Positions 3,298 to 19,286 of a stretch of DNA of 21,880 nucleotides are shown here, one piece after another. Each line of letters opens with the position of its first letter. Position 1 is the first letter of the stretch. The notes beneath the pieces are model-generated. The model worked only from the letters and a program-made list of their open reading frames with translations. It searched no databases and was not told where the DNA came from. Both the position numbers and the translations under genes were made by a program. The stretch is from a virus. The stretch is taken from IMG/VR virus record IMGVR_UViG_3300020121_000330, positions 1 through 21,880 of that record; one strand, given 5' to 3'.

Positions 3298-3429
3298 ATG
3301 GCCGATATCGCCGCCGTCTTTCATTGGTCGCTCGCCTCGCTCGAGGCGCTGCCGCTCGACCGGCTGCTGCACTGGCGTGAGCTCGCCGTAGATCGCTGGA
3401 ACACGATGCAGGGCAAAGCCGATGGGTGA
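3298..3429 (+). CDS. E': E' extension of the tail chaperone (GpE-type), made by -1 frameshift
   Basis: The -1 frame after the slippery site encodes LSADELMADIAAVFHWSLAS and continues to HWRELAVDRWN. This is the GpE/E' signature of P2-like phages (ADIA-x-VFHW, then ELxxWRExAxxR). The frame is open from the slippery site at 3229 to the TGA at 3427-3429, so the main product is probably the 176-aa E-E' fusion. An ATG at 3298 could also start a separate 43-aa protein, but the ribosome site before it is poor; the start given here is only that possible internal start. The end overlaps the start of T by eight bases, which couples chaperone and tape measure translation. Confidence 0.82.
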   Translation: MADIAAVFHWSLASLEALPLDRLLHWRELAVDRWNTMQGKADG

Positions 3430-5656
3430 CAACCGCCTCAATCTCGTCGTCCAGTTCCTGGGCATCGACAAGCTCAGCCCCGCGCTGAAGAACATGATCG
3501 GCCTGGGCAAGACCGGGCGGCAGGAACTGGCCACGCTCACCGCCGAACAGCGCCGCCTCAACGGTGAAATTGCCACTTACGACCGCCGCATCAGCCAGAC
3601 CACCGGCAGCGTCACCCATTTGTGGGATGCCCAGAAAAAGCTGCTCACCCAGCAGGAGGCGATCGGCGGCCAGATCCAGCGCCATAAAAACCTGATGGCG
3701 ATCGACGGCCGCACCTCGCGCATGCAGGCCAAGGGCAGCAGCATGGTCAGCGGCGGCATCAACACGCTGTTCTGGGGCGCCATGCTCGCCGCGCCGATCG
3801 TCGACATGGCCAAGACCGCCGGCGAAGCCCAGGGCCTCGAAAATCAGCTCCGCGCGCTCGGTCTCGATAACAAAACCGTCGCCACGCTCGAAACCAACGC
3901 CCGCCGCGCCCAGGTCGCCGGCGCCAGCTATATCGACATGATGCGCTACACCCTCGAAGCGCAGGGCGCGTTCCGCGAATCGGGCGAACATACCCAGGCA
4001 CAACAGACCTATGGTGCCCGCCTCATGGCCCCGATCCTCGCCCGGCTCGCCTTCGCCAGCAAGGCCATGGGGGTCGAGATGCCGCATGAGGAAGAGCGCT
4101 ACCTGCTGCGCTTCATCGAACAGGCCGGCGGCATGAACGATCCCAAGCGCGCCGCAGCCATCGCCGACGGCGTGTTCCGCGCGCTCCAATCCTCGGGCGG
4201 CACGGTCAAGGCCTCGGGCTATCAGATGTTCATGTCCGCCGCCGGCACCAGCGGGATGAAGCTGTCGCAACGCAGCCTCTTCGCCGATTTCGAACCGCTC
4301 ATCGGCGAATTGCACGAACGCGCCGGCACCGGCCTGATGTCCAGCTATCTGCGCATCAACGGCGTCGGCCGGATCCTCCAGCAGCCCGCCAATGAAATGC
4401 GCCGCCTCGGCATCTGGAGCGGCAAGACTCCCGGCATGAATGGCGCCAACACCGCCCAATTCGCCAGCGATCCGGTTGAATTCTACCGCAATGTCATGCT
4501 GCCCGCCTATGCCAAGGCCGGGGTCAAGGATGTCCAAAAGGAAAACGCGCTGGTCTTCGGCCGCAGCGGCGGCATGCTGTTCAATCTGATCGACAAGCAA
4601 CTGCCGACGATCCTGCGCAGCCGCAGCGCCAATCAAAAAGCGCAGGGCATCGACCAGGCCTACAACGGCGCGAAGAACAGCTTCTTCGGCCAGACCGGCC
4701 AGATGACCGCGGCGTGGAAAGATTTCCTCGTCGTCGCCGGCAGCAAGGGCGGGCTACTCCAAAACCTCACCAGCGGCCTGCGCGGCGCCACCGGCGCGCT
4801 CAAGGCCTTCACCGCCTTCGGCAATGCCCACCCGACCGCGTTCAAATGGATCCTCGGCACCGTGACCGCGCTGCTCGACTTCAAGCTGGCCATGGCCGCG
4901 CTCAAGATCGTCTTCGGTGGCCTGCTCGGCCCGGCCGGGCAAATCTGGGGGCTGTTCAGCAAATACAAGGAATTCGGCTCACTCGCGGCGATGTTCCCCA
5001 GGGTGGCCAAGGCCTTCGGCATCCTGCGCACGGCCGCGCTCTTTCTCGGCCAGGGCTTCCTGCGCGCCGGGGCGCTGATGCTCGCCAATCCCATGGTGCT
5101 GATCATCGTGAGCGTCGGCGTCGCCATCGGCGTGCTCGCCTATCTGGTCTACAAACACTGGGACACGATCAAGAAAGCCTTCTGGACCGGATGGGCCTGG
5201 GTGAAAAATCTGATGTCCGGCGCCGGCACCTGGCTCGCCGGCATCGGTAAAGCGATGATGAACGGGCTGCTGATCGCGCTCGACCCGATGCTGCTGGCGA
5301 ACAAACTGCTCAGCGTCGCCAAGACCGGGATCACCGCCTTCAAGAACTATTTCGGCATCAAGAGCCCGTCGCGGCTGATGATGGCGATGGGCGGCTTCAT
5401 GACCGAAGGGCTGGGGCAAGGCGTCGATCGCGGCGCCCACCGCCCGCTGCGCAGCATGTCCCGCCTCGCCACCGGCATGGCCGGCGCGCTCGCCGCTGGG
5501 ACCGCCGGCGCCGCCCATGCCCGTACGACCGTTCACCACGGCGACAACCACTACCATATCTATCAGCGGCCCGGCGAGGACAGCCACGCCCTGGCCAAGC
5601 GTATTGCCAAGATCGTCCAGAACGACCGGCTCTCCTCCTATCAGGACGATTTCTGA
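3422..5656 (+). CDS. T: Tail tape measure protein T
   Basis: At 744 aa this is the longest tail gene, placed right after E/E' as tape measures always are; P2 gpT has 815 aa. The protein spans the tail lumen and fixes tail length. The N-terminus has the typical LVVQFLGIDKLSPALKNM start followed by a predicted coiled coil (about 35-85). Ala/Gly-rich hydrophobic stretches follow, with a clear membrane segment near residues 558-577 (MVLIIVSVGVAIGVLAYLVY). The tape-measure motif IKSPSRLMMAMGGFM begins at 646, before a basic tail ending in HYHIYQRPGEDSHALAKRIA. The stop TGA overlaps the ATG at 5656, a start that is repeated at U (see the 11-bp repeat). Confidence 0.93.
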   Translation: MGDNRLNLVVQFLGIDKLSPALKNMIGLGKTGRQELATLTAEQRRLNGEIATYDRRISQTTGSVTHLWDAQKKLLTQQEAIGGQIQRHKNLMAIDGRTSRMQAKGSSMVSGGINTLFWGAMLAAPIVDMAKTAGEAQGLENQLRALGLDNKTVATLETNARRAQVAGASYIDMMRYTLEAQGAFRESGEHTQAQQTYGARLMAPILARLAFASKAMGVEMPHEEERYLLRFIEQAGGMNDPKRAAAIADGVFRALQSSGGTVKASGYQMFMSAAGTSGMKLSQRSLFADFEPLIGELHERAGTGLMSSYLRINGVGRILQQPANEMRRLGIWSGKTPGMNGANTAQFASDPVEFYRNVMLPAYAKAGVKDVQKENALVFGRSGGMLFNLIDKQLPTILRSRSANQKAQGIDQAYNGAKNSFFGQTGQMTAAWKDFLVVAGSKGGLLQNLTSGLRGATGALKAFTAFGNAHPTAFKWILGTVTALLDFKLAMAALKIVFGGLLGPAGQIWGLFSKYKEFGSLAAMFPRVAKAFGILRTAALFLGQGFLRAGALMLANPMVLIIVSVGVAIGVLAYLVYKHWDTIKKAFWTGWAWVKNLMSGAGTWLAGIGKAMMNGLLIALDPMLLANKLLSVAKTGITAFKNYFGIKSPSRLMMAMGGFMTEGLGQGVDRGAHRPLRSMSRLATGMAGALAAGTAGAAHARTTVHHGDNHYHIYQRPGEDSHALAKRIAKIVQNDRLSSYQDDF

Positions 5657-5666
5657 TGCTCGCCGC
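5656..5666 (+). repeat. Left copy of 11-bp direct repeat ATGCTCGCCGC
   Basis: ATGCTCGCCGC occurs here, on the stop of T (TGATG), and again exactly at 6057-6067, where it is the start of U (TAATG). The two copies bracket a 401-base unit holding one gene of different composition. This looks like a duplicated insertion point: before the insertion, T and U would have been joined directly as TGATGCTCGCCGC. Confidence 0.75.
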
Positions 5667-5691
5667 AAAAAATTACAGGAAGCGTGCCGAT

Positions 5692-6057
5692 ATGCGCGAC
5701 CTGGCCATCGCGCTGAAGGAAGTCCCTCCGCACCATGAGGCCGCAACATGTGCGTTCATCACAGACAATGATTTAATGCGCCCGCAATGGTGGGTTCGCG
5801 CATTGCTGTGGATAGCGCGCCTTCGCCGCCAGAATATGTGGCTGATTTGGGTATCGATGGAAACCAAATCGCCGGGCATGTGCCGCGACCTTATCGACGC
5901 AACGGCGCAGTGGATTGTAACCGGCTGTGACCGCGTGACCAAAGATGCCGCCGGCGGCTTCAATCAAGGCGAGGTCGATTTGCTGCAGCGGTTCCTCGCT
6001 TCCGTAGATCCGCAATGGTCAGATAGTCTTCGGCGCTACCGAAAGGATGGCATGTAA
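5692..6057 (+). CDS. Unknown inserted protein between T and U (moron candidate)
   Basis: I do not recognise the family. The 121-aa product (133 aa if read from the coupled ATG at 5656) is rich in Trp and Arg, with RPQWWVRALLWIARLRRQNMWLIWV in its first half, a single Cys pair, and an acidic-to-basic C-terminus. It has no clear signal peptide or membrane segment. I chose ATG 5692 because AGGAAG stands nine bases before it; the start at 5656 borrows the first four residues (MLAA) of gpU. P2-like phages have no gene here, its GC content and codon use are lower than those of its neighbours, and it is bracketed by an 11-bp direct repeat. It was therefore probably acquired. Its TAA overlaps the ATG of U, so tail translation is kept intact. 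Confidence 0.75.
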   Translation: MRDLAIALKEVPPHHEAATCAFITDNDLMRPQWWVRALLWIARLRRQNMWLIWVSMETKSPGMCRDLIDATAQWIVTGCDRVTKDAAGGFNQGEVDLLQRFLASVDPQWSDSLRRYRKDGM

Positions 6058-6067
6058 TGCTCGCCGC
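6057..6067 (+). repeat. Right copy of 11-bp direct repeat ATGCTCGCCGC
   Basis: Identical to 5656-5666. Here it encodes the first residues of gpU (MLAA), so this copy is probably the original and the left one its duplicate. Confidence 0.75.
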
Positions 6068-6431
6068 CATCGGTATGTTCGTCTTCGACATGAGCTCCGT
6101 CCTGTTCGACGATCTCTGCCGCAAACGCGACTGGCGCAACGTCCGCACCGAACGCTTCGGCGCGTTCCCGGCCAGCCAATACGTCGGCCCCGGCGACGAC
6201 AAGATCACCCTCTCTGGCACGCTGGTGCCCGAACTCGCCGGCAGCTATTCGGCGATCACCACGCTCGCCAGCATGGCCGACGCCGGCGAGGCCTATCCGC
6301 TCGCCAACGGCGCCGGCACCATCCTCGGCAATTTCACCATCGACAGCCTCGACGAAAAGCACAGCGCCCTCATCGACGCCGGCCTGCCCCGCGTGATCGG
6401 CTTCACCATCGAACTGTCGCGCGTGTCCTGA
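6057..6431 (+). CDS. U: Tail protein U (P2 gpU-like tail terminator region)
   Basis: The 124-aa protein matches the Phage_P2_GpU family. Features are MLAAIGMFVFDMSSVLFDDL at the start, the RTERFGAFPASQYVGPGDDKITLSG segment, and the C-terminal GNFTIDSLDEKHSALIDAGLPRVIGFTIEL. gpU is needed to finish the tail between T and D. The length is close to P2 U (159 aa) but shorter at the C-terminus. Its ATG overlaps the stop of the inserted upstream gene (TAATG), and its stop overlaps the start of D (TGATG). No gpX (LysM-like) gene lies between U and D, unlike P2. Confidence 0.9.
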   Translation: MLAAIGMFVFDMSSVLFDDLCRKRDWRNVRTERFGAFPASQYVGPGDDKITLSGTLVPELAGSYSAITTLASMADAGEAYPLANGAGTILGNFTIDSLDEKHSALIDAGLPRVIGFTIELSRVS

Positions 6432-7495
6432 TGGCCAGCCAACCGCCTTCTTTTTCGGGAAGCGGGGCCGGCCAAGCCTACGTGCAGCCGCAGCCGGCCT
6501 GGCAGATCACCGCCAACGGCATCGATCTCGCCGACAAGCTCGACCCGCGCACCGTCTCGATCACCGTGACCGAAAAGCTGGGCGAGGCCGCCGACGATCT
6601 CGAGATCGAACTCCACGACGCCGACGGCTTGCTCACCATCCCGCCGTCGGGCGCGACGATCGCCGTCTCTATGGGCTGGGCCAAGGGCGTCGGCGTGCGC
6701 TCAGGCCTGGTCGCCAAGGGCACCTTCACCGCCGACGAACCCACCTGGAGCGGCCCACCCGACAAGCTCACCCTGAAAGGCCGCAGCGCCGACCTGGTCA
6801 CCAGCTACCGCACGCGCAAGAATGCCACCTGGACCAACCAGACGCTCGGCGCGATCACCTCTAAAATCGCCGGCGACAACGGCCTCAAGCCGCGCTGCCA
6901 CCCCGATCTCGCCGCCACCACCGTCACCTCGGCCGAACAAGCCAATCAATCCGACATGGAATTCATCCGCAACCTCGGCCGCCGCTACGACGCCGTCGCC
7001 ACGGTCAAGGGCGGCGCGCTCATCCTCGCCCCGGTCAACGCCGCCACCACGGCCAGCGGCGCCACGATCCCAACCCTGATCATCACCCGCGCCATGTGCA
7101 GCAGCTACAGCTACAGCCGCCCCGCGCGCGACGGCGCCCAGGACGGCGCCGAGGCCCAGCATTACGACCAGGCCAGCGCCACGCGCCACACCGTCCAGGC
7201 TGGCGGCAGCGCTGGTGCAGGAAGCGGCGGGCGCCGGCGCCTCAAACGCATCTACGCCAGCGCCCCCGACGCCACCGCCGCCGCCACCAGCACCAGCAAC
7301 CGCATCGCCCGCGCCAAGGGCACCTTCTCGGTCACCCTGTCACTGGGCGACGCCACGATCGGCGCCGGCTACAAAGCCACCACCACCGGCTTCAAGCCCG
7401 AGATCGACGCCACAACCTGGCGCGTCACCAGCGTCAAAAACACCATGGGCCCCGGCGGTTTTATCACCGAACTGGAATTCGAGGTCGCGGCCTGA
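6431..7495 (+). CDS. D: Late protein D (tail/baseplate hub protein)
   Basis: This 354-aa protein fits P2 gpD (387 aa), the hub-type protein homologous to T4 gp27 that anchors the spike below the tape measure. The start ATG overlaps the stop of U. Visible family parts are QITANGIDLADKLDPRTVSITVTEKLGEAADDLEIELHD near the N-terminus, ATWTNQTLGAITSKIAGDNGL in the middle, SDMEFIRNLGRRYDAVATVKGGALIL after it, and the C-terminal WRVTSVKNTMGPGGFITELEFEV. In P2, D is the last late tail gene, which agrees with the switch to unrelated genes after it. Confidence 0.93.
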   Translation: MASQPPSFSGSGAGQAYVQPQPAWQITANGIDLADKLDPRTVSITVTEKLGEAADDLEIELHDADGLLTIPPSGATIAVSMGWAKGVGVRSGLVAKGTFTADEPTWSGPPDKLTLKGRSADLVTSYRTRKNATWTNQTLGAITSKIAGDNGLKPRCHPDLAATTVTSAEQANQSDMEFIRNLGRRYDAVATVKGGALILAPVNAATTASGATIPTLIITRAMCSSYSYSRPARDGAQDGAEAQHYDQASATRHTVQAGGSAGAGSGGRRRLKRIYASAPDATAAATSTSNRIARAKGTFSVTLSLGDATIGAGYKATTTGFKPEIDATTWRVTSVKNTMGPGGFITELEFEVAA

Positions 7496-8055
7496 TGATC
7501 TGTTGGGTCCACGGCGCCAAAGCCTCGCCGCGCAGTTTCAACTATCTTCTCGGCTTGCTGCCCGATCACGCGTTGATGATGTATGAATACAGCGTCGAGA
7601 CCCCGCTCCGCGACAACATCGCCCGGTTGGAAGAGCTCGCCGCCGCGCAATCCATTACCCGTTTTGTCGGGCATAGCCTCGGCGGCGTGATCGCGGCCGA
7701 GATGGTCAAGCGCCACGGCGGCAAAGGCGTGGCGATCGCCAGCCCGCTCGGGGGTTCCGACCTCGCCAACTTCATGCCCGTGTCGCAAATGCTGTTCGAC
7801 GTGGCCTCTCTCCAACCCATCTTCAGAGGGCTCACCGCCCACACCTTCAACGCCGATTTTCTGTCCATCGTCGCCTCCAACGACGGCGGCTACAGCGACG
7901 GCGTCATCACGGTTAAAAGCCAGAAAGGCGCGCGCGGGTCTCTCCTGGCCCAATTCGACGCGAACCATTTCGAAGTGTTGTTAGACCCGGCCGTCGCGGC
8001 ACTCATCCGTAACCACTTGTTCATCGACGCCCCTCACCGATCCGCCGCGGCCTAG
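7495..8055 (+). CDS. Small serine alpha/beta hydrolase (lipase/esterase-like)
   Basis: The 186-aa protein has an alpha/beta-hydrolase layout. There is an early oxyanion HG (H6-G7), the nucleophile elbow GHSLGG at 59-64 (Ser61), a likely acid at D135 in SDGVITVKSQ (D130 is the other choice), and a C-terminal His158 in ANHFEVL. The SDG-then-NHFE spacing is typical of lipase-like triads. Its ATG overlaps the stop of D, so it is a late gene. There is no signal peptide. It may be a tail-associated or lysis-stage esterase acting on envelope lipids, or a metabolic moron; the substrate cannot be inferred. The length is short for the fold, so it is probably a minimal domain. Confidence 0.8.
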   Translation: MICWVHGAKASPRSFNYLLGLLPDHALMMYEYSVETPLRDNIARLEELAAAQSITRFVGHSLGGVIAAEMVKRHGGKGVAIASPLGGSDLANFMPVSQMLFDVASLQPIFRGLTAHTFNADFLSIVASNDGGYSDGVITVKSQKGARGSLLAQFDANHFEVLLDPAVAALIRNHLFIDAPHRSAAA

Positions 8056-16921: not shown

Positions 16922-18717
16922 ACGGTCTTTTCATCGACGGGTTCGCCGGCGGCGGCGGGGCATCCACGGGCATTGCCCAGGCGATCGGGCGCGAGGTCGA
17001 TATCGCCATCAACCATAGCCCGAGCGCGATCGCCATCCACAAAGCCAACCATCCCAGCGCGCAGCACTTCTGCCAGGATATCCGGGCGTTGTGGCCGTCT
17101 GCCGCTACGAAGCTGCGCCCGGTCGCTGGTGCGTGGTTTTCACCGGACTGCAAGGAATACAGCAAGGCGAAAGGTGCTCCGGTAAAGGATCGCCATATCC
17201 GCGCGCTCGCCAATGAGGTCACGGTCTGGCTGAAGGAGACGCGCCCGACGGTCGCCTACCTCGAGAACGTCGAGGAATTTGAGACCGCGGCGCCACTCGA
17301 CGTGGAGGGCATCCCGATCAAGGGGCTTGAGGGCAAGGCGTTCAAATCACTTGTGCGGCAATGGCGCGGGCTCGGTTTCCGGGTCCAATGGCGGGTTCTG
17401 CGTGCCTGCGATTATGGCGCACCGACGTCCCGCAAGCGGCTGTATGTCGTCATGCGCTGCGACGGCCTGCCGATCATCTGGCCGAAGCCGACGCACGCCC
17501 CGGCGAACGACAACCGCGTCATAGCCGGCAAGCTGCTGCCTTACCGAACCGCTGCCGAGTGCATTGACTGGTCTATCCCATGCCCGTCGATATTCGGTCG
17601 GAAAAAGGACTTGGCCGAGGCAACCAACCGGCGGATTGCCCACGGCGTCATGCGCTACGTGGTCAACGCCAAACGCGCTTTTGTCGTCAGCAATGATGGC
17701 GTCCTGGCGTCGCATATCACCAAGTTCCACAGCGGCAGCGTCGGATCGTCGATGGATCGCGAGATGCCGACGGTCACGTCGAATGGCAATCCGAGCCGCC
17801 CGGCCGGCGCCACGCCGCTCGGTCGCGTGGATGCGGTGCTCGCTCCATTTGTTACTTACGGCCAGCACGGCGGCGCGAGCCGCGCGGTCGATGACCCGCA
17901 CCACACAATTGCGGCGTCGAAGAAAGACACGAATGGAATTGCCGCAGCGACGCTGGTCGAGGCGCCATTCATCGATCGCCAGTTCGGGAACTCAATGCCG
18001 TCCTCGATCGGTGAGCCGATCGGATCGACGACAGCGGGCGGTGGCGGGAAGAGCGCGAAGGTCAGTGCGTTCCTTACGACGTTCAATGGCAGCAATACCA
18101 CCGGCGGAGGAGGAGACGCTCAGCAGCCGCTCAAGACGGCTCGCGCCGGCGGTCAGCACCATGGCATCGTCTGCGCTCATATCGAGCAAGCCAACGGAGG
18201 CCCGCGAAACGTCAACGCGGCCGGGCAGGATGTGCGGCGCCCGTTGTCAACGGTCACCAGGACCGGATCGCAACAGCGCCTGGTGGAGACAACGCTGCTC
18301 GAAGAAGGCGAGCTGTCAACCGAAATGATGGAGCGCGCCACCTTGGTCGCGGCGTTCCTGGTCAAATACTATGGCGAGGGTGGCCAGACCCAGGCAGTCG
18401 ATGCGCCGATAGACGTCATCACCACGAAGGCGCGCTATGCCGTCGTAACCGTCACGATCGACGCGGTGACCTATATCATCGTCGATATCGGCCTACGCAT
18501 GCTCAAGCCGCGCGAGCTGGCCCGCGCGCAGGGCTTTCCCGACAATTACATCCTCGATCCAGTCGTGCGGAAGATGCTGCGCGGCAAGTGGGTCGATAGC
18601 CCGCTCACCATCGCCGAGCAGATATCCGCAATTGGCAACAGCGTCTGCCCACCGGTCGCCCGCGCCCTGGTCGCGGCAAATCAGCCTCGTGAAATTGATC
18701 TGAGGATCGCCGCATGA
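16918..18717 (+). CDS. dcm: DNA cytosine-5 methyltransferase with tandem-repeat region
   Basis: This 599-aa enzyme has C5 methyltransferase motif I (FIDGFAGGGGAS, 5-16), the catalytic loop SPDC (Cys78; here PDC rather than the usual PCQ, as in many phage enzymes), ENV (116-118), the CDYGAPTSRKRLYVV segment, and motif X (AIGNSVCPPVARAL) near the end. About residues 255-530 form a long target-recognition region. It holds at least six degenerate copies of a roughly 40-residue unit whose core reads like PLSTVTRTGSQQRLV. Such tandem units may contact DNA several times. Base use is clearly less C-biased than in the tail genes, so the gene was probably acquired separately. The start overlaps the previous stop and the next gene overlaps its end. 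Confidence 0.9.
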   Translation: MNGLFIDGFAGGGGASTGIAQAIGREVDIAINHSPSAIAIHKANHPSAQHFCQDIRALWPSAATKLRPVAGAWFSPDCKEYSKAKGAPVKDRHIRALANEVTVWLKETRPTVAYLENVEEFETAAPLDVEGIPIKGLEGKAFKSLVRQWRGLGFRVQWRVLRACDYGAPTSRKRLYVVMRCDGLPIIWPKPTHAPANDNRVIAGKLLPYRTAAECIDWSIPCPSIFGRKKDLAEATNRRIAHGVMRYVVNAKRAFVVSNDGVLASHITKFHSGSVGSSMDREMPTVTSNGNPSRPAGATPLGRVDAVLAPFVTYGQHGGASRAVDDPHHTIAASKKDTNGIAAATLVEAPFIDRQFGNSMPSSIGEPIGSTTAGGGGKSAKVSAFLTTFNGSNTTGGGGDAQQPLKTARAGGQHHGIVCAHIEQANGGPRNVNAAGQDVRRPLSTVTRTGSQQRLVETTLLEEGELSTEMMERATLVAAFLVKYYGEGGQTQAVDAPIDVITTKARYAVVTVTIDAVTYIIVDIGLRMLKPRELARAQGFPDNYILDPVVRKMLRGKWVDSPLTIAEQISAIGNSVCPPVARALVAANQPREIDLRIAA

Positions 18718-19286
18718 CAGAGCCTGTCGATCTTTTCGGCAAACCCATCATCGAGCGGCGCGCCGAATTCGACGGCGCCAACCGTCTCAAACTGATTCGC
18801 CGATGGGGACCAGGGCCGATCGCATGCGTAATCGGCCATAACCCATCCGATGCCGATGGCACGAAGGAAGATCCTACTTCACGCTGGTGGAACGCTTGGT
18901 TTCAGCTTTTCGGATTCGGCGGGTATGTCGCGGTCAATCTCTACCCATGGTGCAGCGCAGATCCGCATAAGGTCTACCATATCGTCGCGGAAATCGAGGG
19001 CGGCGTGAATTGGGGCGCTCGCGATGAACTCTATTACACCAATCTTGATCAGGCACTGGTGGCCGAGGCGAAGCGCGCTTCGCAGGTTTTCGTCTGTTGG
19101 GGCGGCATCGCGCGCGATTCGGACTGGATCGAGCACGTTATCGAGGAAATCCATTCCGGCGTTGCTCCCTACCCTGATCTTTGGTGCTGGGGAAAGACCG
19201 CGCACGGCGCACCAAAACACCCCATGGCGCGCGGCGCCCATCGCATCGCGCGCGATCAGGCGCCGATCCTTTGGCGCGCAGCGTGA
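18714..19286 (+). CDS. DUF1643 domain protein (190 aa)
   Basis: The protein matches DUF1643 in all main positions: RLKLIRRWGPGPIACVIGHN followed by PSDAD, DPTSRWWNAW, GGYVAVNLYPW, then VFVCWGG and the C-terminal LWCWGKTAHGAPKHPMARG. The function of DUF1643 is unknown. It is often found in phages, and here it is placed between two DNA methyltransferases with overlapping starts and stops on both sides, so a link to DNA modification is a reasonable inference. Its base use is like that of dcm, suggesting a shared history. Confidence 0.85.
   Translation: MTEPVDLFGKPIIERRAEFDGANRLKLIRRWGPGPIACVIGHNPSDADGTKEDPTSRWWNAWFQLFGFGGYVAVNLYPWCSADPHKVYHIVAEIEGGVNWGARDELYYTNLDQALVAEAKRASQVFVCWGGIARDSDWIEHVIEEIHSGVAPYPDLWCWGKTAHGAPKHPMARGAHRIARDQAPILWRAA

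Follow-up and report, generated by a model that had tools for sequence, protein, structure and literature searches.

A putative accessory gene at the T-U joint of a P2-like phage tail operon, a likely tolerated cargo slot

Accessory genes in phage operons and the T-U joint

Phage morons have been defined as single coding regions that lie between two genes adjacent in relatives and that deviate from them in composition, and canonical morons carry their own promoter and terminator (PMC4378225). How accessory genes enter tightly packed phage operons has been called mysterious (PMC4378225). Position inside a late operon can also set the timing of an accessory gene, as is the case for anti-Tab of Pseudomonas phage JBD26 (PMC10884400). 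In E. coli P2-like phages, the A-Q region near cos is a published accessory hotspot (PMC9122126). The tail genes T, U and D have the same order in Burkholderia phages KS5, KS14 and KL3 (PMC3091744) as in the phage described here.

The window, by which we mean the whole stretch of DNA analysed, is a virus record of 21.9 kb. It comes from a P2-like temperate phage with an extra open reading frame (ORF) between T and U. Like a phage moron (PMC4378225), this insert consists of one coding region, which separates two genes that adjoin each other in relatives, its composition deviates from that of its neighbors in GC content at third codon positions (GC3), and it is absent from close relatives. Unlike a moron, it lacks its own promoter and terminator; a consensus scan of positions 5500-6200 for sites of the sigma-70 type detected no promoter-like site on the + strand, and the same interval contained no terminator. 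The insert is therefore moron-like rather than a canonical moron, and its product is expected to be synthesized alongside the tail proteins during lytic growth. It also differs from morons in that its start and stop overlap the neighboring tail genes and in that 11 bp copied from the start of the downstream gene flank it. Unlike that of a moron, its expression would follow the late operon instead of occurring in a silent prophage. Reliance on a position inside the late operon for timing would be shared with anti-Tab, but the latter lies between the terminase genes and encodes a protein of known function (PMC10884400). Like the gpA-gpQ hotspot, the T-U joint is a location where the genes lying between two conserved P2-like phage genes vary; that hotspot is found outside structural operons and spans 1-5 kb (PMC9122126), whereas the T-U slot is inside the tail operon and takes one ORF of 0.2-0.4 kb. 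We found no earlier description of the T-U joint as a cargo site in a non-exhaustive search of the literature.

Gene order and translation signals at the occupied joint

The tail operon of the window is P2-like (Peduoviridae-type), with T, U and D in order on the + strand and U belonging to the GpU family. Gene T (3422-5656) encodes a tail tape measure protein of 744 aa (PHROG 28 tape measure, E 1.7e-25), gene U (6057-6431) a tail terminator-type protein (Phage_P2_GpU, Pfam PF06995, E 1.1e-33; PHROG 76), and gene D (6431-7495) a baseplate hub (Pfam Phage_GPD, E 1.7e-6, just under the curated cut-off). The start of D overlaps U through TGATG, and D has no Shine-Dalgarno sequence. Directly behind D, an ORF at 7492-8055 weakly resembles alpha/beta hydrolases, its best match being to Abhydrolase_6 at an E of 1e-4, which does not reach the cut-off; a hydrolase-like product is unusual at the end of a tail operon.

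The inserted ORF (P0001) occupies 5656-6057 on the + strand. The 3' end of T reads ...GATTTCTGATGCTCGCCGCAAAA and contains an AGGA ribosome-binding site at 5643-5646, and the T stop codon (5654-5656) overlaps the ATG at 5656 as TGATG. The 3' end of the insert reads ...AAAGGATGGCATGTAATGCTCGCCGCCATC, and U starts at 6057 to give the joint TAATG. A preliminary description of this DNA had reported an 11-bp repeat at the T stop and the U start with an ORF between the two copies, and exact copies of ATGCTCGCCGC are indeed found on the + strand at 5656-5666 and 6057-6067, spaced by 401 nt. The left copy is identical in letters to the U start of relatives with an empty joint and appears to be the ancestral U start, and the right copy rebuilds it. 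Taken alone, the repeat is weak evidence for an insertion and proves little, because a third exact copy was found inside T at 3782 in a search of the window and because 11-mer pairs are plentiful in this GC-rich DNA, with 121 of them less than 1 kb apart. Agreement of two ATGs over the next 8 bases occurs at ~1.5e-4 per ATG pair in the window, and the repeat could be such a coincidence without changing the insertion itself. The repeat can be extended to 24 nt at 75% identity, AGGA included, but the ribosome-binding site and the stop codons account for the additional letters, and we therefore count the duplication as 11 bp only. The decisive support for insertion is instead the comparison with relatives presented below.

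The inserted protein may begin at either of two starts with Shine-Dalgarno sequences of equal quality. The original start at 5656, which would graft the residues MLAA onto the product, has its site in the T tail with an anti-Shine-Dalgarno (anti-SD) energy of -4.0 kcal/mol. The alternative is an internal ATG at 5692-5694, preceded on the + strand by AGGAAG (5677-5682; -4.3 kcal/mol), a possible ribosome-binding site of the insert's own. The resulting products have 133 and 121 aa, respectively, in agreement with the size range first given. The new start of U uses an AAAGGA that the insert carries at its 3' end (6042-6047, + strand), with an anti-SD energy of -7.1 kcal/mol that is stronger than that of the former site (-4.0 kcal/mol); U in relatives with an empty joint has values of -3.2 to -6.4 kcal/mol. 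Translational coupling had been described as intact at both joints. The overlaps TGATG and TAATG are both present, but the coupling of U appears to have been re-made and not simply left intact, since the 3' end of the insert supplies its Shine-Dalgarno sequence.

The insert was also said to be of lower GC, and its 57.4% GC (0.60, 0.46 and 0.66 by codon position) bears this out, given that GC3 is 0.66 compared to 0.82-0.94 in V, W, the sheath gene, E, T, U, D and the hydrolase ORF behind D. Elsewhere in the window, a phrog_3230-type ORF at 18714-19286 has a GC3 of 0.66 like the insert and may be another recent arrival.

The joint is empty in most relatives and holds other genes in two of them

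Relatives were gathered using gpU, the T C-terminus and a gpU alignment as queries. Excision of 401 bases had been predicted to restore a direct T-U overlap, and the corresponding empty site, the 13-mer TGATGCTCGCCGC, is present letter for letter at the T-U joints of L119/L162 (GAATTCTGATGCTCGCCGCAC), L170 (GACGCCTGATGCTCGCCGCCC) and L187 (GACGACTGATGCTCGCCGCCC), from which the gene is cleanly absent. T also directly overlaps U, with at least one letter changed, in L117, L118, L120, L123 and several more, and direct overlap is what the lineages closest to the window in the T-U region have. Elsewhere T and U are separated by short gaps, which measure 12-13 nt in L003 and L004 and 3 nt in L005 and L006. 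When measured automatically, the T-U distance is -10 to 30 nt in 98 of 107 loci, and in 70 of the 79 loci of an overlapping second set, though these counts are approximate because the wrong upstream frame was chosen in a few loci, such as L038, L089 and L109. The gene is neither carried by all relatives nor a conserved tail component. Its clean absence, the exact empty site, the foreign composition and the lack of a tail-family match agree in placing the insertion exactly at the U start, as the preliminary description had it.

Several larger T-U gaps were inspected as possible inserts and rejected. Those in L007, L009, L010, L196 and L197 were judged to reflect N-terminally extended U genes; the extension was seen directly in L007, L009 and L010, L196 is the same contig as L010, and L197 was assigned by analogy. 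The gaps in L052, L107 and L215 were judged to be broken or masked T frames, and L065 and L108 were left out of this inspection. Some gpU proteins thus have an N-terminal extension of ~60 residues that is absent from others (L007 2815-3372, L009 2695-3267 and L010/L196). A distant alphaproteobacterial prophage (L150, 1000-1501) has ~500 bp between T and U with no obvious gene.

Only three occupied T-U joints were found among the relatives examined. The closest relative, IMGVR_UViG_3300020120_000071 (L002; L251 as a whole record), is 84-93% identical to the window over the ~11.5 kb that they share. Its T C-terminus is 91% identical up to window position 5658, and the match resumes at 6057 with 92.5% identity. 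The L002 joint holds an unrelated 77-aa ORF (233 bp) with CTGATG at both ends, and the inserts of L002 and the window have neither protein nor DNA similarity. With small indels (≤23 bp) within blocks and short unaligned stretches (~60 bp near window 2813) set aside, the T-U insert is the only gene-level difference between these phages in the shared stretch, besides a mosaic segment of T. This diverged segment is in the middle of T (window 4214-4649 versus 5773-6259 on the reverse complement of L251), and the two phages are ~84-92% identical elsewhere.

The third extra gene is a 140-aa ORF at the T-U joint of L012, and its homologues sit in accessory loci of P2-like phages, outside the tail operon. 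The homologue in Klebsiella phage ST147-VIM1phi7.1 is beside a portal gene, a reverse transcriptase gene and an XRE regulator, and that in Salmonella phage FSL SP-004 is beside a gene annotated COG2184. The position next to the portal and reverse transcriptase genes corresponds to a gpA-gpQ-like locus. Within this family (L012 2573-2995; L234 3802-4426; L235 313-934; L236 4772-5432), the three members from outside L012 each form a divergent pair with a small ORF, their starts touching, near reverse transcriptase, COG2184 or replication genes. The family and the small divergent ORF may constitute a two-gene accessory system. No matching duplication flanks the L012 insert. At the two joints of the L002 insert, the letters in common are limited to CTGATG, for which the overlap motif is a sufficient explanation. 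The duplication is therefore particular to the window's event and not a general signature of the T-U slot. The presence of other genes in L002 and L012 nevertheless suggests that the T-U joint is a repeatedly used slot.

The inserted protein and its probable homologue

The inserted protein has no significant match in Pfam, PHROGs, NCBIfam or PADLOC, with 0 families among the PADLOC anti-phage defence profiles. The lack of any tail-family match in Pfam and PHROGs fits the earlier statement that the product has no known tail role. An endolysin match in PHROG at E 0.15 was ignored. A tblastn search matched a single sequence, gp17 of Azospirillum phage Cd, together with copies on Azospirillum replicons. 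The two proteins are 27% identical over 111 aa with an E of 4e-3 in the phage collection, which is marginal at the database level. Both are 133 residues long, the alignment is colinear, and GGFxQxExD is common to both. Smith-Waterman alignment with 5000 shuffles gave z 15, so that a pairwise p of 1.5e-9 stands against the database E of 4e-3 in a family for which no third member was found. Based on this comparison, gp17 is probably a homologue of the inserted protein. The neighbors of the gp17 gene (pRhico081-like), located upstream of terminase, are a DUF1376 gene on one side and a dCMP deaminase gene on the other. This is the early region of phage Cd, whose head module is of the HK97 type, whereas the insert is in a tail operon.

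Searches of viral contigs with protein patterns, the two-sequence alignment and a degenerate DNA pattern for GGFxQxExD returned only exact gp17 copies. A profile search of 385 alphaproteobacterial genomes gave two weak matches, which were rejected as unrelated genes with internal stops. The motif GGF[ND]Q[GS]EID is also present in other, unrelated phage proteins (L257 3324, L259 12456 and L261 6730); having come from a pattern search, this recurrence may be due to chance.

The AF2 model of the insert, built from the two-sequence alignment, is all helical with seven predicted helices and a mean pLDDT of 70, and it gave no fold match in PDB or BFVD (best E >1). Hydropathy analysis identified no convincing membrane segment in the insert, whose best 19-residue mean is 0.53, compared to 1.53 for gp17. 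The inserted protein probably does not form part of the tail. A late-expressed accessory factor is, with low certainty, the likeliest alternative, and its target may be, for example, a competing phage, a defence or assembly.

Origin of the insert and significance of the joint

We consider it likely that an accessory gene entered the late tail operon at the T-U joint and that this joint acts as a tolerated cargo slot, and the insert is best read as a promoterless moron-like gene that took U's original start site. We weighed this against the possibility that the gene is ancestral at the joint and was lost elsewhere. Slipped deletion between the 11-bp direct repeats would yield the same TGATGCTCGCCGC, but the gpU family as a rule has empty joints, also in lineages whose spacers differ (L003-L006), the nearest relative has a different gene at the joint, and the composition of the insert is foreign, all of which make ancestry improbable. 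An exact empty site and a flanking direct repeat would also be expected of a transposon or integron-type cassette with an 11-bp target-site duplication made by a transposase. This origin is extremely unlikely, given that the insert has no transposase, its ends have no terminal inverted repeats, and the L002 and L012 cases have no duplication of the same length.

Two further alternatives concern the ORF itself. Its location between T and U, with apparent coupling to both, would suit a real tail or assembly component acquired in this lineage, for instance a U or T chaperone. Nearly all relatives with a complete T-U-D order do without it, however, no tail family matches it, its probable homologue is in the early region of an unrelated phage, and the sister phage has an unrelated ORF instead, so that such a role seems quite improbable. 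That the 401 bp are non-coding or have decayed, and hence hold no working gene, is very unlikely; the lack of a curated family match and the mean pLDDT of 70 obtained from only two aligned sequences could be taken this way, but GC by codon position follows a coding pattern, stops break the other five frames, and a probable homologue of the same length exists.

The sequences themselves show a clean insertion, the 11 duplicated bases and a newly made start of U. Under the insertion model, a small accessory gene would have entered exactly where the T stop and U start overlap, as TGATG in sister lineages. The point of entry would have been inside the first 11 bases of U or beside them, these bases being duplicated in the process, and the original T-coupled start and its ribosome-binding site would now drive the inserted gene. 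The second 11-base copy and AAAGGA provide the new U start, which overlaps the stop of the insert as TAATG, and the inserted gene would be translated in the late phase, coupled to T and U. We infer that the event occurred by illegitimate recombination, since neither a transposase nor terminal inverted repeats are present. Because the same joint appears to have taken other genes in other phages, it would serve as a tolerated cargo slot.

More tentatively, the T-U joint could be a hitherto undescribed cargo slot in a structural operon that genes enter by start-site capture, with a short duplication and the newcomer's 3' ribosome-binding site re-creating the displaced start; we hold this with less than even confidence. 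If true, such cargo would be tied to lytic tail production, and the event would leave a readable trace of moron-like gene gain. Together, a filled site, its exact empty counterpart and an alternative occupant in a near relative make the outcome of gene gain legible to the base, including the start codon that was taken, the new start of the displaced gene and the promoterless cargo inside a tail operon. The T-U joint also offers a site at which small phage proteins expressed late could be sought.
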